Below are positions 5,619 through 26,830 of a stretch of 64,000 nt of DNA, piece by piece; the stretch's first letter is position 1, and each line of letters opens with the position of its first letter. The notes beneath the pieces are model-generated. The model was given only the letters and a program-made list of their open reading frames with translations. It was not told the DNA's origin and searched no databases. Source of the stretch: Methanomassiliicoccus sp. (GTDB lineage: Archaea; Thermoplasmatota; Thermoplasmata; Methanomassiliicoccales; Methanomassiliicoccaceae); the NCBI GenBank assembly GCA_018262895.1, contig JADFDJ010000005.1:1-64000 (forward strand), in the 5' to 3' direction. The translations under genes and the position numbers were made by a program.

Positions 5619-6974
5619 TCACCCCTTCTGCCCAAGGCATGAGGCCGCTAAACCTCGCGCGAACTCCAGGTCGCTCCCGAAGTGGAGGTGCAGGTACGAT
5701 GCCAGGGCGTTGTTCTTGGTGAAACCGTCCGCAACACCGTCGATGCCTTTGTCCTTCGAGAGCTTGTATGAGAACCTCTGCCCGCTATGGGACGCCACAC
5801 GGGAGTAGTGGAAGACGTGCCCCCTCACGGTCCCTCCGGCGGGGGACAGGACACAGTCGGACACGCAGGTCGCCTCCACGTATCCCAGGGCCTGCAGGCG
5901 GGGCGTCATCTCCACGGTAGCGTCGAAGACACCAGTCATGTCCCTGCTCAGACCGTCCTGTCCTTTCACGCTTTTGCACAGGTACATCATCCCTCCGCAT
6001 TCAGCATATGCTGGAACGTCCTCTCGCACCATCTCGTGAAGAGCTTCCTTCATGGGACCGTTCGCGGCCAGCTCGTCAAGGTGGAGCTCCGGGTATCCAC
6101 CGCCGAAGTAATAGCCGTCCGCGGCCGGCAGGTCTCCCGTGGTGGGTGAGAACTCTACGATGTCCGCCCCGAGAGATCTTAGGATGTCGAGGTTGTCCTG
6201 GTAGTAGAAGTTGAAGGAATCGTCCTTGGCCAGCCCCAACCGGAAATGCCCCATCCTATCGAGGGGGGGCTCAGGGACCTCCTCCCATCCCGGGGCGTTG
6301 GAAGCTATCTCCATCATCAGGTCAAGGTCGAGATTGTCCTCGACGAGGGCCCTGATGCCCTCGTACCTCGCAGTGTTGTCCATCTCCCTGGCCGGGACCA
6401 GCCCCAGGTGCCTGCTCTCCAGCATGATGTCCTTTTTCTTGGGCATGCCCCCGAGGCTGACCAGGCCGAGGCCGCTTATGGATTCTTCCACCATCTCCAG
6501 GTGCCTCTTCCCGCTGACCCTGTTGAAGATCACACCCATCACCTGGGTCTCCTCATCGAAGGTCTTGAACCCCTTGACGAGCGCGCCCGCGCTCCGGGAG
6601 GTGGCCGAGGCGTCGACGACCAGGATGACCGGACAACGGAGCACCTTCGACAGGTGCGCCGAGCTCCCCTCCTCGCTCCTCCCGTCGTAGCCGTCGAACA
6701 GCCCCATCACCCCCTCGATCAGGCTCACATCGGCGCCGGCGGAGGCCGTCTGGAACGAATACGGTACCCAGCCCGGGAACATCCATGTGTCCAGGTTCCT
6801 CGATCTCCGCTCGGTGACCTCGTTGTGGTGCATGGGGTCTAGGAAGTCCGGCCCGGCCTTGAACGGCTGGACATCAAGCCCTCGCGCCTTGAGGGCTGCG
6901 ATTATGCCCACGGTCAACGTCGACTTCCCCACCCCGCTCCTCTCCCCGGATATCATGATGCGGGGTCTGTTCAC
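5619..6974 (-). CDS. cbiA: Cobyrinate a,c-diamide synthase
   Basis: Catalyses ATP- and glutamine-dependent amidation of the a and c carboxylates of (cobalt-)sirohydrochlorin-derived cobyrinate. The N-terminal P-loop dethiobiotin-synthetase-like domain starts at ISGERSGVGKSTLTVG. FKAGPDFLDPMHH and LIEGVMGLFDGYDG are CbiA signatures. The C-terminal class-I glutamine amidotransferase-like domain carries AECGG (nucleophile Cys) and late His residues. The frame continues 52 codons upstream, but the GTG at 6974 gives the normal length of 451 residues. It overlaps the cbiE stop as GTGA and has AAAGGAGG seven bases before it. It is the last gene of the cbi operon. Confidence 0.95.
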   Translation of the reverse strand: MNRPRIMISGERSGVGKSTLTVGIIAALKARGLDVQPFKAGPDFLDPMHHNEVTERRSRNLDTWMFPGWVPYSFQTASAGADVSLIEGVMGLFDGYDGRSEEGSSAHLSKVLRCPVILVVDASATSRSAGALVKGFKTFDEETQVMGVIFNRVSGKRHLEMVEESISGLGLVSLGGMPKKKDIMLESRHLGLVPAREMDNTARYEGIRALVEDNLDLDLMMEIASNAPGWEEVPEPPLDRMGHFRLGLAKDDSFNFYYQDNLDILRSLGADIVEFSPTTGDLPAADGYYFGGGYPELHLDELAANGPMKEALHEMVREDVPAYAECGGMMYLCKSVKGQDGLSRDMTGVFDATVEMTPRLQALGYVEATCVSDCVLSPAGGTVRGHVFHYSRVASHSGQRFSYKLSKDKGIDGVADGFTKNNALASYLHLHFGSDLEFARGLAASCLGQKG

Positions 6975-7561
6975 CGGCACCCCTCCTTTACGATGATCAG
7001 GGAGAAGAGTTTGGATATGACAGCTGGGGGCTGTTCGGCATCGCCGAAGGATATCATCTCGTCCGCGTAGCCCAGGTTCTCGCAGGCGATGACCTTGCAG
7101 ATCAGGCCTTTTTCCTGCATCGTCCGGCACAGGGCAATGATATCGAAGCCTGGTTCTGTCAGGACGAAGGGGATCCTCCCTCTTTCCACTTCATCAAGCA
7201 TCTCCCTTCGGGCGGACTCCTCATCCTTCCCGTGGGCATCGACGACGACCGCCTTCGTCAGGGGGAGGCGAAGACGGGAGAACGCGCACTGCATCGACGA
7301 TATGCCGGGAACGACCTCCTCGCCCAGATGGCCTAGGCCTGCCAGCATGGGGTCCCCCGTGGAAAGGACCACGGAGTCCTCGGGAAGCTCGTTCAGTCGC
7401 GAGAAGTCCTTCAAGGTCACGGTCCTACAGCCCGCAGGGAGGTACTGGCGTACCATATCAAGGGCCCGGTCCGACCCGTAGACGCTCTTGGCCTTCTTCA
7501 GCCGGTCCATGGCATCCATGGTGAGCATGCCCGGACCGCACCCCACCCCCACGACGATCAT
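6971..7561 (-). CDS. cbiE: Cobalt-precorrin-7 C5-methyltransferase
   Basis: SAM-dependent corrin-ring methyltransferase of the tetrapyrrole methylase family. The N-terminal glycine motif VVGVGCGPGMLTMDA, the VLSTGDPMLAGLG loop and VPGISSMQCAF are the family motifs in order. The 196-residue length fits a stand-alone CbiE. In many organisms CbiE is fused to CbiT. Here cbiT is a separate gene at the other end of the operon. The start overlaps the end of cbiD by four bases. Confidence 0.92.
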   Translation of the reverse strand: MIVVGVGCGPGMLTMDAMDRLKKAKSVYGSDRALDMVRQYLPAGCRTVTLKDFSRLNELPEDSVVLSTGDPMLAGLGHLGEEVVPGISSMQCAFSRLRLPLTKAVVVDAHGKDEESARREMLDEVERGRIPFVLTEPGFDIIALCRTMQEKGLICKVIACENLGYADEMISFGDAEQPPAVISKLFSLIIVKEGCR

Positions 7562-8565
7562 GCTGAGGCCCCCAGCACCCTTCCCGTGCGGTCGATCAGG
7601 GCGATGCCGTGCCCGGGATACATGGACTTGAACTTCTCGATCGAGGAGCGCACCACCCTCGCCCCGTGCTCCGACCCCACTAGCTCCTCCACGGTCCTGT
7701 AACCGGACCCGACCAGGACCGAGGGCTCAATGAACTTGATGATAAGCGCGGGCAGGCCGAACAAAGTGAGCCCGTCGCCACGGGAGTCCAGGACCTGCTT
7801 CATCTTGGCGCCGACAAGGATGACCTCCTGGTCTGGATACTGCAGGCGGGCGTACCGAAGGCCTATCCTGCCAGTAGTTATAACGGCCCGCTCGGCCCTT
7901 TGTGCACGGTCTACCGAGTCCTGACCTAGGTGATCATCCCAGGGCTCGACGAGACCTGTGGACCCCAGGACCGATATGCCCCCCATCACCCCGATCCTCC
8001 CGTTGAGGGTGTTGCGCGCGATAACCTCGCCGTTGACGGCTTGGAGGCTTACCAGCGCCCCCTTCTTGCAATGGGAAAGGCACGCCGTAGAGATGGCCTC
8101 CAGAATGCACTCCATGGCCGTCCCGCTTATGGCCGGGGAGCCCTTGGCGTACCTGGGCGTATCCCGGTCCCACCGGCCGATGCCCGTGCCCACATCAAGT
8201 ATCGTTTGGTCGCGGAACTCGATGAACCGGGACCTGAACTCGATGCCCGCGGTGGCATCGCTGGGGTAGTCTCCCGAGTACTTGAAGCAGCTGGCCGTGC
8301 CATCTCGGGCCGTTACCTCAACCGGGAACGTCAGACCACAGGCCAGCCTGACATCGACGCTCCTTACCTCCCTTCCTCCAAGGGACATTATGGCCGCCAT
8401 GCACGCGGCGGCGGCCGTGGTTCCTGTGGTGAAACCTCTTCTCAACGCCCGGCCGCTGGAGGTGAGAACGGCGCGGCCGTCCTCGACCAGCTTTCTGTCC
8501 TCATCGCTCAGGCACAACGAGGACCATGCCTCGGGATACCTGAACCTGGTCACGGGGTCGATCAT
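7558..8565 (-). CDS. cbiD: Cobalt-precorrin-5B C1-methyltransferase
   Basis: Anaerobic-pathway enzyme methylating C1 during ring contraction. The signature RRGFTTGTTAAAACMAAI lies near residue 42. Later Gly-rich segments DVGTGIGRWDRDTPRYAKGSPAI, NGRIGVMGGISVLGSTGLVEPW and TTGRIGLRYAR are typical. CbiD is a diagnostic marker for the anaerobic, early-cobalt route. The 335-residue length is normal, although about 40 residues precede the signature, longer than in some homologues. Start ATG is two bases after the cbiC stop. Confidence 0.95.
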   Translation of the reverse strand: MIDPVTRFRYPEAWSSLCLSDEDRKLVEDGRAVLTSSGRALRRGFTTGTTAAAACMAAIMSLGGREVRSVDVRLACGLTFPVEVTARDGTASCFKYSGDYPSDATAGIEFRSRFIEFRDQTILDVGTGIGRWDRDTPRYAKGSPAISGTAMECILEAISTACLSHCKKGALVSLQAVNGEVIARNTLNGRIGVMGGISVLGSTGLVEPWDDHLGQDSVDRAQRAERAVITTGRIGLRYARLQYPDQEVILVGAKMKQVLDSRGDGLTLFGLPALIIKFIEPSVLVGSGYRTVEELVGSEHGARVVRSSIEKFKSMYPGHGIALIDRTGRVLGASA

Positions 8566-8566
8566 C

Positions 8567-9229
8567 TCAACCGCTCTTCTCGGCGAACATGGTTATGATC
8601 TCGTTCATTGCTGCCACCGCCACCGGCGTACCTCCCCTGGTCCCCACTGTGGAGATGGAGCTGATGTCCAGCTTCCGAAGCTCCTCCTTAGACTCCGCTG
8701 CGTTCACGAAGCCCACGGGGCAGCCGATCACCAGGGCAGGGGTTATGCCCCGCTCGTGCATCTTGCACAGGGACAAAAGGCAGGACGGCGCGTTGCCGAT
8801 GACCACAATGGAGCCGTTCAACTTCTCACCCAGGGCCAGCATGCCCGCGCTCGTCCTGGTGATGTCCTTTTGACCTGTACGCTCGGAGGCGTGGTCCAGG
8901 AGGCAGTCCACCTTGCACTCGTGCCCCTTCTTCTGGATGCCGATTTGGACCATGCGGATGTCAGCGTAAATCGTGGCCTTCGCCCGCAACGCGGCAAGTC
9001 CGGCAGCGATGGGGTCCTGACGGAAATTTATCAGATCGGCCATGGAGAAGTCCCCCACGGCTATGGAGCAGCGCTGCCTGATACGGTCCTCTGGCGTTTC
9101 GTTGCCCAAGGTCCTGCGGGCCAGCTGCCTGCTTCGGGTGGATATGCTGTACCCCTCGGCGGTGTCAGCTCCCAGGTCAATATACGTACTTTCGGTGGTA
9201 CCCTCTCGGTGTGATGATCCCTCTGACAT
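8567..9229 (-). CDS. cbiC: Cobalt-precorrin-8 methylmutase
   Basis: Moves the methyl group from C11 to C12 to give cobyrinate. CbiC/CobH hallmarks are visible: IRQRCSIAVGDFSMADLI, the DIRMVQIGI segment, SAGMLALGEKLNGSIVVIGNAPSCLL (active-site loop) and PALVIGCPVGFVNAAESKE. The catalytic His in other CbiC proteins lies in the KxxH-type region, which here would be near the HASERTGQKDITRTSAGM segment. 220 residues, normal length. Its first about 17 codons overlap cbiH in another frame. Confidence 0.95.
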   Translation of the reverse strand: MSEGSSHREGTTESTYIDLGADTAEGYSISTRSRQLARRTLGNETPEDRIRQRCSIAVGDFSMADLINFRQDPIAAGLAALRAKATIYADIRMVQIGIQKKGHECKVDCLLDHASERTGQKDITRTSAGMLALGEKLNGSIVVIGNAPSCLLSLCKMHERGITPALVIGCPVGFVNAAESKEELRKLDISSISTVGTRGGTPVAVAAMNEIITMFAEKSG

Positions 9230-9977
9230 TCTCTCCCTCCTTGAACAGTTCGGTGCTCTCCCCTCCGATTATGACCATGGAATGCATGTCCACAACGCTG
9301 TCGTCCTCGTAGAGCGATCCCAGGTCGGTGACCAGGAAGCTCTCCCCCTCGCCCCTGAACGCGTTCCTGACTATCCCGATGGGGGTGCTCGGCCTGGCAT
9401 GCCGGAGCCCTATCTCCAACGCCTTCTTCAGGTTCCCCGGGCGGTTGTGGCTGCGGGGGTTGTACACGGCCATGGGTATCCCCATCTGGAACCCCAGGTC
9501 CAGGCGCCTCTCGATGACCTCCCACGGGGTCAGCAGGTCGCTCAGCGATATCACCAGAAAATCGCTGGAAAGCGGTGAGCCGAGGATTGATGCTGCTGCC
9601 GTCGCCGCGGTCACTCCTGGTATGACCTTCACATCAAGCGTGGGAGCCTCGTGCTGTACCAGCTCCAGGACGATGCTGGCCATGCCATAGACCCCGGCAT
9701 CACCGCCGCTGACCATGGCCACCTTGGATGTCCTTGCCAGTCTAACGGCCTCGCGGGCGCGCTCCACCTCCTTTCCCATGGAGGAGTGGATTACGATCTT
9801 GCCCTCCAGCAGCGGCTCCATATGGTCCAGGTACAGCCTGTTCCCGATGACCACGTCCGACTCCCTGATAGCCCTCTGCGCCAACGGGGTCAGGTTCTCC
9901 AGGTCCCCCGGCCCGGTGCTTACCACATACAGTGTTCCGGCGATCTCATCTTGCGATCGCGATGGTGACGTTTCCAT
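9177..9977 (-). CDS. cbiH: Cobalt-precorrin-3B C17-methyltransferase (ring contraction)
   Basis: Tetrapyrrole methylase that methylates C17 and drives ring contraction. Motifs in order: YVVSTGPGDLENLTPLAQ, VIGNRLYLD, VAMVSGGDAGVYGMA, VIPGVTAATAAASILG and MAVYNPRSHNRPGNL, the last being characteristic of CbiH/CobJ. 266 residues. The ATG at 9977 has GGAGGAG upstream at good spacing and overlaps the end of cbiG by 32 bases. Confidence 0.95.
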   Translation of the reverse strand: METSPSRSQDEIAGTLYVVSTGPGDLENLTPLAQRAIRESDVVIGNRLYLDHMEPLLEGKIVIHSSMGKEVERAREAVRLARTSKVAMVSGGDAGVYGMASIVLELVQHEAPTLDVKVIPGVTAATAAASILGSPLSSDFLVISLSDLLTPWEVIERRLDLGFQMGIPMAVYNPRSHNRPGNLKKALEIGLRHARPSTPIGIVRNAFRGEGESFLVTDLGSLYEDDSVVDMHSMVIIGGESTELFKEGENVRGIITPRGYHRKYVY

Positions 9978-10812
9978 AAGCTCTCCTCCTCATCACTAGT
10001 TCCTTGTGCTTTGACAGGGCCAAGGCCGACGGTTCGGCCACCCCGATAAGACCGATCAGTTCCGCCCGGGACCTTGAGGCCACGGGCTGAGAGTTGATGG
10101 TGTCATCATCGAGGAAGTAAAGGCTGCCCCCGAGCTCGCGAACAGCGGCGGTAAGGCCCTCCTCATCCGCCTTCTTCATGGTGGTCGTGAAAGCTAGCAC
10201 CTCGTTCTCGGGAATGCTGAGCGTTCTCAGGGCATCACGGACCGCACCTACCACCTCCGCGGCGTCGGTCCCTCGGTTGCATCCGATGCCCACCACATAC
10301 TCTCCCGGCCGCGAGAGGATGGAAACTCCGGGAGCGATCAGCACCACCGCCGGACCATCGATCCTGTACACCGGAACATCGCCGTGGACGAAGGCGGTGT
10401 TGACCGCGACCGTCGAAAACTTGTTCATGACCTCCAGGCCAGAGCGGGCCGCGATCTCCTCCACCGAGTCCTTCCCCAGGGCGTCGGTGGCGGTGGATAT
10501 AACGGGCGTCAGACCACGGGAGGCCAGCTTCCTGGCTATATCGTTCCCTCCGTGATGCCCCCCCAGAATGGGGACGCAGTACCTCAGGTCGGGAGTGACC
10601 ACGACCACTGCGGGGTCCACCCATTTGTCGCGTATAAGTGACGACAGCTTCCGCACCACGATTCCGCTGGCCATAACAGCGACGATAGCCTCATAGCCCT
10701 GGAAAGCCCGCTCGAAGGCATCGTCCGAGTACTCCATAACATCAGCGCCAAGCCATTCCGCGAGCTGCTTGGCCTGAAGTGACCGGTCGATATGGATGAC
10801 GACGCACCTCAT
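9946..10812 (-). CDS. cbiG: Cobalt-precorrin-5A hydrolase
   Basis: Opens the delta-lactone and releases acetaldehyde during ring contraction. The N-terminal and central domain has VAVMASGIVVRKLSSLIRDKWVDPAVVVV and PILGGHHGGNDIARKLA, a highly specific CbiG motif. The C-terminal domain contains GIGCNRGTD, also conserved. 288 residues, slightly shorter than typical, but both domains are present. The ATG overlaps the cbiF stop as ATGA. Confidence 0.95.
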   Translation of the reverse strand: MRCVVIHIDRSLQAKQLAEWLGADVMEYSDDAFERAFQGYEAIVAVMASGIVVRKLSSLIRDKWVDPAVVVVTPDLRYCVPILGGHHGGNDIARKLASRGLTPVISTATDALGKDSVEEIAARSGLEVMNKFSTVAVNTAFVHGDVPVYRIDGPAVVLIAPGVSILSRPGEYVVGIGCNRGTDAAEVVGAVRDALRTLSIPENEVLAFTTTMKKADEEGLTAAVRELGGSLYFLDDDTINSQPVASRSRAELIGLIGVAEPSALALSKHKELVMRRRAYGNVTIAIAR

Positions 10813-11528
10813 GAGTACAGCACCGACCGGTGGTACCGCCCCATGGGATCCACGATGCCCCCGATTAGGATCAGGGCCGTCTTGTGGATCCCCGCCTCCT
10901 CAGCCTTCTGGACGATGTCTGACACGCACCCCTTAACGATCTTCTGGTCAGGCCAGGAGGCATGGTAGATGACCGCTGCAGGCGTGTCCCCCGGGCAGCG
11001 CAGCTTGCGCACTATCTCTCCCAGCTTGTCCGTGCCTAAGAAGATGACCATGGAGGAGCCCATCTCCGACAGCTTGGAGATGTCGTCCTCCTGCAGGGTC
11101 TCGCCAGCAGGCCTGGTGATTATCAGCGACTCCGAGACCCCTTTAAGGGTGTACTGGGTCTTCAAGGCCGCGGAGGCAGCGAACAGCGAGCTCACGCCGG
11201 GAACGATGCGCACCTCCACCCCCTGCTTTTCCAGCTCGGCGATCTGCTCCACGATGGAGCCGTAGAGGGCGGGATCTCCGCTGTGCAGCCTCACAACGCA
11301 CTTCCCTGCCTTGGCGGCCTCGGTCATGATGGGGACCATCTCCTCCACGGACATACCCCAGCTGTCCATCTTCACTCCTGCCCGGGAACGCTCCACGAGA
11401 GCAGGGTTCACCAATGAGCCGGCATAGATCAGAACATCCGCGCCGACGAGGATATCGTTCCCCTTCATGGTGATGAGGTCAGGGTCTCCCGGACCCGCTC
11501 CAACGAACCAGACCACGGGTGTGGACAT
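10809..11528 (-). CDS. cbiF: Cobalt-precorrin-4 C11-methyltransferase
   Basis: Tetrapyrrole methylase with FVGAGPGDPDLITMKG at the N-terminus, LIYAGSLVNPALV, VRLHSGDPALYGSIVEQI and VPGVSSLFAASAALKTQYTL, the order and wording specific for CbiF/CobM. 239 residues. GGAGG lies seven bases before the ATG. cbiF-cbiG-cbiH act consecutively in ring contraction and are consecutive here. Confidence 0.95.
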   Translation of the reverse strand: MSTPVVWFVGAGPGDPDLITMKGNDILVGADVLIYAGSLVNPALVERSRAGVKMDSWGMSVEEMVPIMTEAAKAGKCVVRLHSGDPALYGSIVEQIAELEKQGVEVRIVPGVSSLFAASAALKTQYTLKGVSESLIITRPAGETLQEDDISKLSEMGSSMVIFLGTDKLGEIVRKLRCPGDTPAAVIYHASWPDQKIVKGCVSDIVQKAEEAGIHKTALILIGGIVDPMGRYHRSVLYS

Positions 11529-11529
11529 C

Positions 11530-12138
11530 CTATGACCTCCGGGCGAACATGACGCTCATGTAATCACAGGTCTCCGGCATATCCTCGTCGCGGTACACCC
11601 TTTCACCGTCCATGTGCATCCTTTCCACAAGGTGGAACTCGTTGTAACCCTGGGAGCGGAGATCGTTCATCATCTCCCGTGGAGCGCGAACCTTAAGGTG
11701 CACCAGGCATCTCTGGTCCGAACCATCGGTGACCAGCAGACCGGAGTTGACAGAGATGTTCAGACGGGAGGCGATGGCCGTTATGGAGCTTATCCCCGGC
11801 TCCACCCTGAACTGGATGTCTGGATATTTGCCCCTCATGACATCACAAAGCCTGCCGAAGGTCGAGTAGAAACCTGGGTCCCCGAGTATGCCCAGGACGG
11901 CCGTTCCTTTACGCGCGATCGGGGCTATGGTATCACAGTTGCGCTCCATGGCAGCGCGGACCTTCGCCTCATCATCCGTCATGGGGAAATCAAGCATCTC
12001 CGCGTCCGCGTAAGGGGCGACGATGTCCTTGGCTATTCTTCCAGGGACGAACACCTTGTCCGCCTCCGCCAGGAGCTTAGCCCCCCGCACGGTGATAAGA
12101 TCGCTCTCCCCCGGCCCAATGCCTAACGCTATCAACAT
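11530..12138 (-). CDS. cbiL: Cobalt-factor II C20-methyltransferase
   Basis: First SAM-dependent C20 methylation of cobalt-sirohydrochlorin. ALGIGPGESDLITVRGAKLL, ADKVFVPGR, VLGILGDPGFYSTFGRL and VEPGISSITAIASRL are the family motifs. At 202 residues it is shorter than many CbiL proteins (about 230) but complete through the SAM-binding core. The ATG at 12138 overlaps the cbiT stop as TGATG, with AGGTG six bases before it, so it is preferred to the GTG-type start nine bases upstream. Confidence 0.92.
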   Translation of the reverse strand: MLIALGIGPGESDLITVRGAKLLAEADKVFVPGRIAKDIVAPYADAEMLDFPMTDDEAKVRAAMERNCDTIAPIARKGTAVLGILGDPGFYSTFGRLCDVMRGKYPDIQFRVEPGISSITAIASRLNISVNSGLLVTDGSDQRCLVHLKVRAPREMMNDLRSQGYNEFHLVERMHMDGERVYRDEDMPETCDYMSVMFARRS

Positions 12139-12689
12139 CACTTGCACCTTCCAATAATTATGTATACAGGATCTATAGGACGGAAAAGGAACGAGTCAGC
12201 GAGAGGGTAGGACCGGGACACCGAGACCTGAATGACCTCCTCGAAGATACCTAGGTCCTGCATCGTTGACACCGCCCGATGGAGCGTTCTAAGCAGTACA
12301 GCGTTCACCACTATCCTGCCCTTGACCTGTTCAGAGAGAATCCGAATTACCTCCTCCAGGTCCTGCGATCCGCCTATAAAAGCACCGTTCAATCCACCCA
12401 ATCCCGGGAGAACCTCTTTCGCGTTTCCTTTGACCACCTTCACATTATCAGCGCAGCTCTCTGCAACATTGTGGGTGGCGGCTACGATGGCCTCGTCCCT
12501 GACATCGATAGCGTAGACCCGTTCACATGTTCTTGAAGCCTCGATGGATACCTTCCCTGTACCGCAACCAACGTCAGCGATGATATCGCCTTCTTTCAAA
12601 GCCAGTTTAAACAGGGATATGGCCATCACCTCATCCTGCGTCGGTCCTCCGCTAACTTTCATGTTATCAGGGTTGGAGGAATCATCCAA
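12138..12689 (-). CDS. cbiT: Cobalt-precorrin-6B C15-methyltransferase (decarboxylating)
   Basis: Class-I SAM methyltransferase of the CbiT type: SGGPTQDEVMAISLFKL, then IADVGCGTGKVSIEAS (motif I) and VYAIDVRDEAIVAA. First gene of the cbi operon. The frame is open to 12911, but the upstream part holds promoter-like palindromes. A TTG at 12689 gives 183 residues, the usual CbiT length, and lies about 26 bases after the TATA-like centre of the palindrome at 12707-12723, consistent with a leaderless mRNA. An internal ATG at 12662 would also preserve the core. Confidence 0.88.
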   Translation of the reverse strand: MDDSSNPDNMKVSGGPTQDEVMAISLFKLALKEGDIIADVGCGTGKVSIEASRTCERVYAIDVRDEAIVAATHNVAESCADNVKVVKGNAKEVLPGLGGLNGAFIGGSQDLEEVIRILSEQVKGRIVVNAVLLRTLHRAVSTMQDLGIFEEVIQVSVSRSYPLADSFLFRPIDPVYIIIGRCK

Positions 12690-12723
12690 CTTAGTATTTA
12701 ACCGTGTTGGATGTATAATCCAA
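12673..12723 (-). promoter_or_regulatory. cbi operon promoter with two TTGGA-N7-TCCAA palindromes
   Basis: Palindrome 1 (12707-12723) reads TTGGATGTATAATCCAA on the plus strand and encloses a TATA-like TTATAC in the direction of cbiT. Palindrome 2 (12673-12689) is TTGGA-GGAATCA-TCCAA and overlaps the predicted start. Their centres are 34 bases apart, about three helical turns. A protein binding both would block TBP and RNA polymerase, so a repressor is inferred. The same 17-mer occurs at the adenosyltransferase promoter (26255-26271). Confidence 0.65.
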
Positions 12724-15333: not shown

Positions 15334-16149
15334 TCATCCATCCATCTCGCGCTCCAGGGTATCGAGAGCTTCTTCCAATGTCAGGGGTATCTCGTTTTTC
15401 CTACCGGTCCGGGCGTTCCACTCGGAGAACAACCGAGGTATTGATGGAAGCTCCAGGCTGGCCTCAGTTAGAATGTCGGGACGGCGCAGTAGGCCGTGGA
15501 AGTCCCCATCGTAGAGGACCTTGCGCTTGAGGACCACCACCCTCTTAGTCAGCTCCATCGCCACCGTGAGATCATGGGTCGCCAGGACCATGCTCTTGTC
15601 CAGAGACTGGAGCACGTTCACCAATGCCCTCCTGCCGAGGGGGTCGAGGTTCGCCGTAGGCTCATCCAATAGCAAGATCTCCGGGTCCATGGCCAGAAGT
15701 CCGGCGATGGCCACCCTCTTCTTCTCTCCGAAGCTGAGGTGGTGAGGGACCCTGTCTGCATACTCCGTCACTCCGGCGAGGGAGAGGCTGGTCTCCACCC
15801 GGCGGCTCACCTCCAGCTCGTCTAACATCATGTTGATAGGGCCGAAGGCCACATCATCCCACACCCGAGGCATGAATATCTGGTCATCAGGGTCCTGGAA
15901 CAGGAGGCCCGCCCGCATCGTCGCTTGACGGGCGGTCTTTTTGTTCACGATGATGCCTGCGATCTCCATCTCCCCCTCCGTTGGCAGGTACAAGGAGTCC
16001 AGAATGTGCAGTAGCGTGCTCTTACCGGCGCCGTTGGGACCTACCAGGGACACCCTCTCACCCTGCATCACGGTAAGGTCTATTCCTTCCAGAGCCTTGA
16101 TGCCGTCCTCGTACGCATACCCCACGCCCTTCAGCTTAATGGCGACCAT
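15334..16149 (-). CDS. cbiO: Cobalt ECF transporter ATPase CbiO
   Basis: ATP-binding subunit of the cobalt energy-coupling-factor importer. Walker A LVGPNGAGKSTLLHIL, Q-loop LFQDPDDQIFMPRVWDDVAFGPINMML (the QDPDDQIF wording is typical of ECF ATPases), signature LSFGEKKRVAIAGLLAMDPEILLLDEPTANLDPLGR, and switch ATHDL are all present. One ATPase probably forms a homodimer. ATG at 16149 begins at MVAIKLKG and overlaps the end of cbiQ. An ATG five codons upstream is also possible. Confidence 0.93.
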   Translation of the reverse strand: MVAIKLKGVGYAYEDGIKALEGIDLTVMQGERVSLVGPNGAGKSTLLHILDSLYLPTEGEMEIAGIIVNKKTARQATMRAGLLFQDPDDQIFMPRVWDDVAFGPINMMLDELEVSRRVETSLSLAGVTEYADRVPHHLSFGEKKRVAIAGLLAMDPEILLLDEPTANLDPLGRRALVNVLQSLDKSMVLATHDLTVAMELTKRVVVLKRKVLYDGDFHGLLRRPDILTEASLELPSIPRLFSEWNARTGRKNEIPLTLEEALDTLEREMDG

Positions 16150-16871
16150 TGGACCAACCCCCATTGCATGGATATTATTAGCATTATGACCCCAAAGAAC
16201 AGCAGGAGCAGGAGGGCGTCGCCGGGCCCCACCTTTGGCCTCCTGAGTATCCGTATATCCCCGTGGTATCCCCTAGCCACCAGTCCGTCGTAGATGGCCT
16301 TGGAGCGAACGTGCGAGCGGACGAGCACCATACCCGCGGTGAAGGAGATGGTCTTGAAGACATCCTTGGAGAGCAGGCTCCCCTTCAGTGAGAAGCCTCG
16401 TGAACGCCTCGCCATGTTCATCAGTCCCAGCTCCTCCATCATCACGAAGATGTAGCGGTAGGTGAGGAGGAGCAGGGAGCAGATCACATAGGGCACGCGG
16501 AACCACCGCAGACCCCACAGGACATCGAAGAAGGGAGTGGTGGAGATCAGCAGAATGAGGGCTAGTACCGAAGAGGTGATGCGCAAGGCCATGGCCAGGG
16601 CTGGCACCCATCCCGAGGTCAACAGTAAGGCTCCTGAGGCCACCACTATGAAGGGGAGGCTGAGGGCGAAGATGCGAGCGGTGTGCTTGATAGGGATACG
16701 CGAGGTCATCTGAAGCAGGGCGATGAAAACTAGGGCGATCACCAATGGCAGAAGTCCCCTCATGAAGGACAAGGCCACGATCAACGAGATGATGGCCACC
16801 AGTTTGACACGAGGATCGAACTTGAAGAAGGGGCTGCTACGACAATACCGATCGATCTCGATAGTATCCAT
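16131..16871 (-). CDS. cbiQ: Cobalt ECF transporter transmembrane subunit CbiQ
   Basis: T-component coupling CbiO to the substrate subunits. It starts with a cytosolic segment FFKFDPRVKLVAIISLIVALSF, has five or so membrane helices, and the coupling motif region MARRSRGFSL (A-R-G type) followed by SHVRSKAIYDGLVARGYHGD (second coupling helix). These two Ala-Arg-Gly-like motifs define EcfT/CbiQ. 246 residues. It is separated from cbiN by 91 bases. Confidence 0.93.
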   Translation of the reverse strand: MDTIEIDRYCRSSPFFKFDPRVKLVAIISLIVALSFMRGLLPLVIALVFIALLQMTSRIPIKHTARIFALSLPFIVVASGALLLTSGWVPALAMALRITSSVLALILLISTTPFFDVLWGLRWFRVPYVICSLLLLTYRYIFVMMEELGLMNMARRSRGFSLKGSLLSKDVFKTISFTAGMVLVRSHVRSKAIYDGLVARGYHGDIRILRRPKVGPGDALLLLLFFGVIMLIISMQWGLVQWSPLS

Positions 16872-16962
16872 GGTGCCTGCCGAACTTAATGGACCTGCTA
16901 GCTCCAGAATGTCAAATAAATGGAAGGGGAAGGGGTTATTGAAACCTTCGCAGGGTTCAGGT

Positions 16963-17244
16963 TCAGGGCGAGCGTACGCTCTTCCGCAGCTTAACTATGC
17001 CGTACATCACGGCCATGGTTATGAAGAACCCTACTATGCCCATCACCAGTGATGACAGGTAGTTTGACCCGTAGTCGAGGGGGGCGGTGTACACCGGCTC
17101 GCTCTCGGCGAACCCGGTCTCCTCCATGGTCTTGTCCAGGCCGTCAGGGACGCCGTCGGACACCAGAAAGAAGCCCACCAACCCGATTGCGAAGGCGATC
17201 AATATCGCCGACGTTCCGAAGATGTATCTATTGTCCATGTTCAC
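16963..17244 (-). CDS. cbiN: CbiN-like (PDGLE-type) cobalt transporter subunit
   Basis: 93 residues with one membrane helix near each end and an extracytoplasmic loop between them containing GVPDGLDKTMEETGFAESEP, the PDGLE-type motif. This fits CbiN or the PDGLE subunit of archaeal ECF cobalt/nickel importers. The ATG overlaps the cbiM stop by four bases. CbiM and CbiN together form the metal-specific substrate unit. Confidence 0.85.
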   Translation of the reverse strand: MNMDNRYIFGTSAILIAFAIGLVGFFLVSDGVPDGLDKTMEETGFAESEPVYTAPLDYGSNYLSSLVMGIVGFFITMAVMYGIVKLRKSVRSP

Positions 17245-17891
17245 ACCTTCGCTGCCATGGGGGTCTTGAGCATTCCCGGCGAGACCTTGGCGAGGAACAG
17301 CACGACCCCGCTGGTTATGGCGGCCTCACCGATGCCTATGAGCAGGTGGAAACCCATCATGGAGGGGAAGGCTAGCACACCGTCTATACCGTACGCGCCG
17401 CCAGAGATGGAGTAGCTCAGGGCCAGCTCCGATGCACAAACGGTCGCGGCCACAAACACCGAGGCCCATGCTGCTAAGGGTATGCCCACCAGGCGGTACC
17501 TCTCCCCGAAGAGCCTGAGGGCCCCATAGGTCACCAGAGGCGCGACAATGGCCATGTTGAGGACGTTCAATCCCAGAGCGGTGATGCCGCCGTCCCCGAA
17601 GACCAGCCCCTGTACGATCAGTATCACCGTGATGATGAGCATTGCCGCCCATGGTCCCAGCAGAACTGTCGCCAGCGCAGCCCCTATGAGGTGGCCTGTG
17701 GTCCCCCCTCCGATTGGAAAGTTCAGCATCTGGGCAACGAATATCCCGGCTGCAAGTACAGCCATCATTGGCATGGTCCGATCATCAATATTTTTCCCGT
17801 ATCTCCATAGGACCAGGCCAATCACCACCAAGGTAATTAGCCATCCAGCGGTCCAAACGACCGGGTCCATCAAACCATCTGGAATGTGCAA
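17241..17891 (-). CDS. cbiM: Cobalt ECF transporter substrate-binding subunit CbiM
   Basis: S-component that binds Co2+. It begins HIPDGLMDPVVW right after the initiator residue: in CbiM/NikM the free N-terminus and His2 coordinate the metal, so the start is fixed by function at the TTG codon at 17891 (GGGGG stands eight bases before it). FPIGGGTTGHLIGAALATVLLGPWAA (conserved His) and LVFGDGGITALGLNVLNMA are family motifs. First gene of cbiM-N-Q-O. A TATA-like element (GATTTATAC) is near 17955. Confidence 0.95.
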   Translation of the reverse strand: MHIPDGLMDPVVWTAGWLITLVVIGLVLWRYGKNIDDRTMPMMAVLAAGIFVAQMLNFPIGGGTTGHLIGAALATVLLGPWAAMLIITVILIVQGLVFGDGGITALGLNVLNMAIVAPLVTYGALRLFGERYRLVGIPLAAWASVFVAATVCASELALSYSISGGAYGIDGVLAFPSMMGFHLLIGIGEAAITSGVVLFLAKVSPGMLKTPMAAKV

Positions 17892-26254: not shown

Positions 26255-26271
26255 TTGGATGTATAATCCAA
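26255..26271. promoter_or_regulatory. Operator-like palindrome TTGGA-N7-TCCAA before the adenosyltransferase gene
   Basis: TTGGATGTATAATCCAA, identical to the copy at 12707-12723; the identity extends three bases further upstream (20 bases in all). GTATAA inside it lies about 22-28 bases before the possible starts at 26285 and 26291, so it probably contains the TATA box. Confidence 0.65.
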
Positions 26272-26284
26272 GAGTTCGTTGATC

Positions 26285-26830
26285 ATGACAGTGAAGGAAG
26301 ACATACGGCAGAAGCTGGGGCTTGTTCACGTTTACACCGGGAACGGTAAGGGCAAGACCACCGCGGCCTTGGGCCTGGCATTACGGGCCATGGGCAACGA
26401 CCTGAACGTTGCCATGGTGCAGTTCATGAAGTGCCCGCAGTACTACGGAGAGTACGAGATCTCGAAATCTTTGCCCAACTTCACCCTGCTGCCCATGGGC
26501 AGGGACTGCCTGGTACACGCAGATAAACCACTTCCCGAGGACAAAGAGGCCGCCGAGGCCGCGCTTCGAAAGTCAGAGGAGCTCATTCACTCTGGCAAGT
26601 ATGACATGGTGATCATGGACGAGGTGAACGTTTCCATCAAGTTCGACCTCGTCAACGTCGACGATGTTATTAATGTTGTCAAGAACCGCCCTCCGCGCGT
26701 GGAGGTGGTCCTGACCGGTCGCTATGCACCCCCGCAGCTGGTGGAGATCGCGGACCTGGTTACAGAGATGAAGTGCATCAAGCATCCCTTCACCAAGGGC
26801 ATTCCCGCCCGAGATGGGATAGAGCGTTGA
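26285..26830 (+). CDS. cobA: Cob(I)alamin adenosyltransferase (CobA/CobO/BtuR type)
   Basis: Transfers the adenosyl group of ATP to reduced corrinoid, making adenosylcobamide. GLVHVYTGNGKGKTTAALGLALRAMG is the P-loop typical of BtuR/CobA. Downstream VAMVQFMK, MVIMDEVNVSIKFDLV (Walker B) and VEVVLTGRYAPPQLVEIADLVTEMKCIKHPFTKGIPARDGIE are diagnostic. About 181 residues. The ATG at 26285 is given; a GTG at 26291 is also possible and suits a leaderless mRNA better. It stands alone, but its promoter carries the same palindrome as the cbi operon. Confidence 0.93.
   Translation: MTVKEDIRQKLGLVHVYTGNGKGKTTAALGLALRAMGNDLNVAMVQFMKCPQYYGEYEISKSLPNFTLLPMGRDCLVHADKPLPEDKEAAEAALRKSEELIHSGKYDMVIMDEVNVSIKFDLVNVDDVINVVKNRPPRVEVVLTGRYAPPQLVEIADLVTEMKCIKHPFTKGIPARDGIER

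Follow-up and report, generated by a model that had tools for sequence, protein, structure and literature searches.

Members of the Methanomassiliicoccales, an order of gut and wetland methanogens, depend on corrinoid enzymes, and we know of no account of how archaea sense vitamin B12. This question is raised directly by the cobalamin biosynthesis (cbi) operon of a Methanomassiliicoccus species, in front of which two palindromes with the same arms are found: which protein might bind them, and which signal might it follow? The operon lies in the window, i.e. the whole stretch of 64,000 nucleotides that was analyzed (positions 1 to 64,000 of contig JADFDJ010000005.1, assembly GCA_018262895.1); the genome, referred to as G000, is 99.66% complete. 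The motif, its enrichment, the genes behind it, its place in promoters and its recurrent adjacency to DUF4443 genes in three archaeal lineages were established computationally. With a probability of about 0.74, the palindromes serve as operators in a cobamide/cobalt regulon shared throughout the order and are bound by a winged-helix repressor, most likely a DUF4443 protein.

Palindromes at the cbiT Promoter

The first gene of the operon, cbiT (12138..12662, minus strand), scores above the cut-off of the CbiT model TIGR02469 and is followed by cbiL-F-G-H-C-D-E-A (5619..12147, minus strand). These assignments derive from the open reading frames and, for CbiF and CbiD, from models; all names other than CbiT, CbiF and CbiD are based on sequence and gene order. 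Upstream of cbiT, the two TTGGA-N7-TCCAA palindromes of the original prediction are indeed present, with identical arms, an N7 spacing and centers 34 bp apart. The proximal (TTGGAGGAATCATCCAA, 12673..12689) and distal (TTGGATGTATAATCCAA, 12707..12723) copies, neither of which has a strand, reach scores of 24.4 and 29.8 with the position weight matrix (PWM), and the distal palindrome recurs identically at five other places in the genome.

Their arrangement relative to the promoter differs from what had been proposed. The TATA-like element had been placed inside one palindrome, but the best TATA box (TTAAATAC, 12701-12694, minus strand) sits between both. Likewise, the second palindrome was thought to cover the start of cbiT, whereas the ATG occupies 12662-12660 (minus strand), with the proximal palindrome 11-27 bp further upstream. 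The assignment of 12694..12701 (minus strand) as the likely TATA box of the operon was made from sequence and fits the order-wide TATA profile described below. With the usual archaeal spacing, transcription would start at about 12672, the edge of the proximal palindrome. Since the TATA box is located between the two palindromes, both its flanks are covered. A pair of dimers bound at these bracketing sites would block TBP/TFB and RNA polymerase.

A second, putatively controlled unit in the window is cobA/cobO (26285..26830, plus strand; TIGR00708 above cut-off), which encodes a corrinoid adenosyltransferase. A single strandless palindrome, identified by its sequence at 26255..26271, ends 14 bp before its start codon and is identical to the copy at 12707 (TTGGATGTATAATCCAA). 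In total, three exact TTGGAN7TCCAA matches occur in the window, while 0.04 would be expected for its base composition. Unlike the cobalt and B12 genes, a second CbiMNQO-type uptake set (15334-17891, minus strand; CbiM and CbiQ confirmed) carries no operator; it may encode a nickel transporter.

A Probable Order-Wide Cobamide and Cobalt Regulon

Throughout the 2.34 Mb genome, TTGGAN7TCCAA is found exactly at 18 places, compared to 2 for the reversed control, and the longer TTGGATN5ATCCAA at 11 (0 for the reversed control; 0.06 expected). With up to three mismatches, TTGGATGTATAATCCAA yields 25 matches in this genome and its reversed control none. Among 81 Methanomassiliicoccales genomes, TTGGATN5ATCCAA adds up to 379 occurrences versus 1 for the control, and 72 of the 81 carry at least one site. 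In 21 genomes, 145 exact sites yield the extended consensus aRTTGGATGWWWCATCCAAYt, whose inner base pair is frequently mismatched (GTATA core).

A scan of this genome and of the order bears out the expectation that the motif is enriched before cobalamin, cobalt and corrinoid genes rather than scattered at random. Gene names were taken from family searches where these were run and otherwise from the sequence itself. In G000, sites precede btuF/C/D together with chelatase-like genes (C5:521), cbiM with cbiN and cobB/cobQ-type genes (C5:24917), btuFCD-cbiB-cbiZ (C11:153909), cbiQO (C25:37509) and a DUF4430 protein gene with an ECF transporter (C30:65331/65361), and weak sites were detected before cobN (L029 4065) and cobT (C11:143954). 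Another operator (C25:46611; L025 17612) is situated between a cbiX/cfb-like set that includes F430-type genes and divergent hem/siroheme genes, and the regulon may thus reach into the coenzyme F430 branch. Two further sites (C24:133713/133785; L024 6714-8981) accompany a TDH-like dehydrogenase and a second TrpD-like phosphoribosyltransferase, a pair that could possibly supply aminopropanol or lower ligands for cobamides. Regulon genes of this genome without a known role in B12 metabolism encode SatP-like, fasciclin and PQQ/PKD proteins as well as a 186-aa protein. Among the relatives, the first gene after the site most commonly encodes BtuF (15 genomes), a TDH-like protein (10), surface proteins (7) or CobT (7); in six genomes, it is a cysteine-rich CobB-like protein.

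Several sites stand out individually. A corrinoid protein of G017 with two B12-binding domains (L081 3976-4695) has an operator at its start. A perfect operator of G000 (L023 7031; G000:C24:120530) has no obvious coding gene downstream, where a small RNA or a tiny ORF is possible. Where sites overlap ORF starts, e.g. L191 1939 and L081 4683, ORF calls may begin inside the palindrome, with spurious N-termini such as MDDTSN, MIHPT, MYHPT and MDVSSN resulting from translation begun within it.

Promoter Geometry

The positions of TATA-like octamers were profiled around 75 sites of Methanomassiliicoccales, each of them proximal or single and oriented by its gene. The octamers are strongly concentrated 25-42 bp (27 seen, about 4.6 expected) and 13-18 bp (14 seen, 1.4 expected) upstream of the site center, and a smaller peak follows 12-17 bp downstream. 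At -40..-18, 25 TATA-like boxes are on the gene strand versus 4 on the other. As archaeal TATA boxes precede the transcription start by about 25 bp, the sites lie over the start itself, over the stretch that separates it from the TATA box, or over the upstream border of the latter. Repression would be expected of a protein bound at any of these three positions. The TATA positions across these 75 sites hence support the repressor-type geometry that had originally been suggested for this archaeal promoter. In a likely scenario, the repressor is a homodimeric winged-helix protein that occupies the 17-21 bp palindrome, either over the TATA box and transcription start or next to them, and is released when cobamide (or cobalt) becomes scarce.

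A Candidate Regulator

The most likely candidate for this repressor is DUF4443 (PF14544), which combines a CggR-like winged helix with a small C-terminal domain. The representative of G000 (194 aa; G000:C29:93215-93793) matches the Pfam model with 112.1 bits (cut-off 27), and protein searches found DUF4443-A to be encoded in 80 of the 81 genomes of the order, including G000. Its confident AlphaFold2 model (pLDDT 87.7) matches Pyrococcus PH0730 (2p8t) far better than any other entry of the PDB. The operator-bound DNA-binding domain of CggR is also among the top structure matches (rmsd 1.2-1.3 over about 62 residues), and the search additionally returns GAD-containing aspartyl-tRNA synthetases, which do not represent a cobamide-binding fold. 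No recognizable cobamide-binding motif was seen in the C-terminal domain.

Within the order, DUF4443 mostly sits with metK and not with B12 genes. It adjoins the motif in G017, G028, G031 and G040. In two genomes devoid of an exact site, G022 and G025, a one-mismatch site is located between DUF4443 and a DUF4430-like surface gene, and G080 retains one in a cbi promoter region. No motif was found near the DUF4443 gene of G000, and G069 and G072 possess DUF4443 and show no site even at two mismatches. As only 4 of 30 copies from the order adjoin a site, DUF4443 was at first set aside, a decision that was reversed by loci from distant archaea. As a side observation from coordinates, extra DUF4443 copies are encoded near expanded zinc-ribbon/HTH genes in G029, G043, G055, G073 and G007.

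A search for the strict motif in 84,980 species genomes returned 114 stretches, many of which stem from Methanomassiliicoccales. Many of the remaining stretches outside the order are apparently chance matches in bacteria, and two archaeal matches inside genes (L267, L320) were also taken as chance. In Nitrosopumilus-like Thaumarchaeota (L223, L258, L310), the palindrome is located between a DUF4443 winged-helix gene and divergent cbtB-cbtA, a predicted cobalt transporter whose two genes were both called above the Pfam cut-offs. In L304, it also adjoins DUF4443, with the contig ending before any transporter. Micrarchaeota-type genomes (L233, L242, L335) harbor it between DUF4443 and genes for secreted alpha/alpha-toroid or DUF4430-like proteins, and in L286 a DUF4443 domain is encoded about 0.4 kb from the site. 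The presence of the same motif beside DUF4443 elsewhere in archaea makes this family the likely missing B12 regulator.

The association was also recovered in a motif-blind manner, i.e. by fetching DUF4443 loci through a family search around a Nitrosopumilus genome. The motif was present at a score of at least 17 in 10 of the 28 previously unseen loci, compared to none for the reversed matrix and none for twelve symmetric permutations; in the Nitrosopumilus-like genomes, the site is mostly found 30-48 bp before the DUF4443 start. In a second motif-blind set, taken from Micrarchaeota relatives, the motif is present in L431 and L432, replaced by variants in L433-L435, L437 and L438, and absent from L430 and L436. 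The DUF4443 proteins of L433-L435 and L438 have an altered recognition helix (GEWSTR), and the palindrome paired with them is changed as well (TTGGCGAATCCATCCAA or similar), which suggests co-variation of protein and DNA. Other DUF4443 neighbors are cobB/cbiA (L384, L393), cobO (L407, L410) and DUF4430/ECF genes (L403, L408, L409). The proteins of Methanomassiliicoccus (194 aa) and Nitrosopumilus (213 aa) would be predicted to bind the operator TTGGATGATACATCCAA.

Alternatively, the regulon may be real and its regulator another transcription factor of the order, with DUF4443 being merely a frequent neighbor of B12 transport genes that regulates something else. This would agree with the lack of a motif near DUF4443 in G000, with the occurrence of DUF4443 in genomes with few sites, and with the many Thermoproteota DUF4443 genes in unrelated contexts. 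For instance, among Thermoproteota related to 'Benthortus', 73 of 81 genomes encode DUF4443, and most of the genes sampled from them are found beside ftsY or other unrelated genes in the absence of the motif, so that the family is not uniformly linked to B12. However, the partners vary from cbtBA in Thaumarchaeota to toroid or DUF4430-like genes in Micrarchaeota and DUF4430/ECF genes in the Methanomassiliicoccales, while motif and DUF4443 remain constant. Moreover, a phylogeny of 92 DUF4443 proteins distributes the members with the motif over separate deep clades, with at least five changes being forced (starred branches). A different factor is thus considered unlikely. A zinc-ribbon/HTH protein seen beside sites in some genomes (G015, G063) was rejected; it occurs in 34 of the 81 genomes, mainly of some families, and is absent from G000.

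A Nur-like regulator of the Fur family that senses cobalt or nickel would be another conceivable binder of the palindrome. Nur boxes are organized as 6-N5-6, a layout that the palindrome shares. In addition, a Fur gene adjoins cbiM with a site nearby in G001, G002 and G006, and the site lies between Fur and a divergent cysteine-rich CobB-like gene in G008, G012 and G013. Yet the site-rich genomes G000, G003, G010 and G014 have no Fur gene, merely 41 of 81 genomes show a match to PF01475, and Fur loci outside the family are mostly devoid of the motif. Its absence from G000 and other site-rich genomes refutes Fur as a universal regulator and renders this explanation very improbable, even though Fur may co-regulate cbiM in some species. 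Least credible of all is an action of the palindromes at the RNA level, as hairpins of a riboswitch, a terminator or a processing signal: the sites are inverted repeats and some are downstream of the predicted transcription start, but several lie upstream of the TATA box (the peak at +12..+17), the inner base pair is often mismatched in the GTATA core, the sequence preference concerns the half-sites of the DNA and holds for either strand, and no Rfam family was detected in the promoter, as covariance models matched nothing between 12400 and 13300 up to E=1 and just a tRNA in the whole window.

A DUF4443 repressor with cobamide or cobalt as its probable signal hence remains the preferred reading. 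Beyond the order, we lean slightly towards the view that DUF4443 and TTGGATGWWWCATCCAA form an ancient pair that serves as B12/cobalt repressor system in Thermoplasmatota, Nitrososphaerota and Micrarchaeota and that would, via PH0730, also explain the predicted CblR regulon of Thermococcales.

Comparison with Known Systems

A palindromic site for a hypothetical archaeal B12 regulator, the CBL-box, was reportedly proposed by Rodionov in 2003. This proposal predates the description of the Methanomassiliicoccales, through which the regulon is traced here and for which a regulator is put forward. In Pyrococcus furiosus, the predicted regulator of the cobalamin biosynthesis regulon, CblR, was still given as 'unknown' in 2023 (PMC10746257), and RegPrecise 3.0 makes no mention of CblR. 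The CBL-box/CblR regulon as described and the present one are alike in having a conserved palindrome upstream of several archaeal operons for B12 synthesis and transport. Pyrococcus itself encodes a DUF4443 protein, PH0730.

By Pfam and fold, the candidate belongs to the DUF4443/PH0730-like family (PF14544, PF22167; PDB 2p8t), to which no function is assigned. No mention of DUF4443 was found in the literature searched, and PH0730 is named once, as the name of a winged-helix family (PMC6316755). The N-terminal winged helix resembles that of CggR from the SorC family, whereas its effector domain shows no relation to that of CggR, be it in sequence or in length. This uncharacterized family with a solved structure (2p8t) receives a functional hypothesis. 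The findings also concern marine Thaumarchaeota, a group implicated in the global production of cobalamin (PMC4303638).

Taken together, the analysis provides a defined 21-bp operator, a list of genes in a methanogen order and one named protein family as candidate regulator. Bacterial B12 riboswitch regulons include cbtAB, btuFCD, cobT and cbi genes as well as cobalt transporters. The gene set described here is similar, but a DNA operator and a proposed protein regulator replace the riboswitch, of which none was found at the promoter or in the window. If the proposal holds true, DUF4443 and TTGGATGWWWCATCCAA would play the part in Thermoplasmatota, Nitrososphaerota and Micrarchaeota that the B12 riboswitch has in bacteria.
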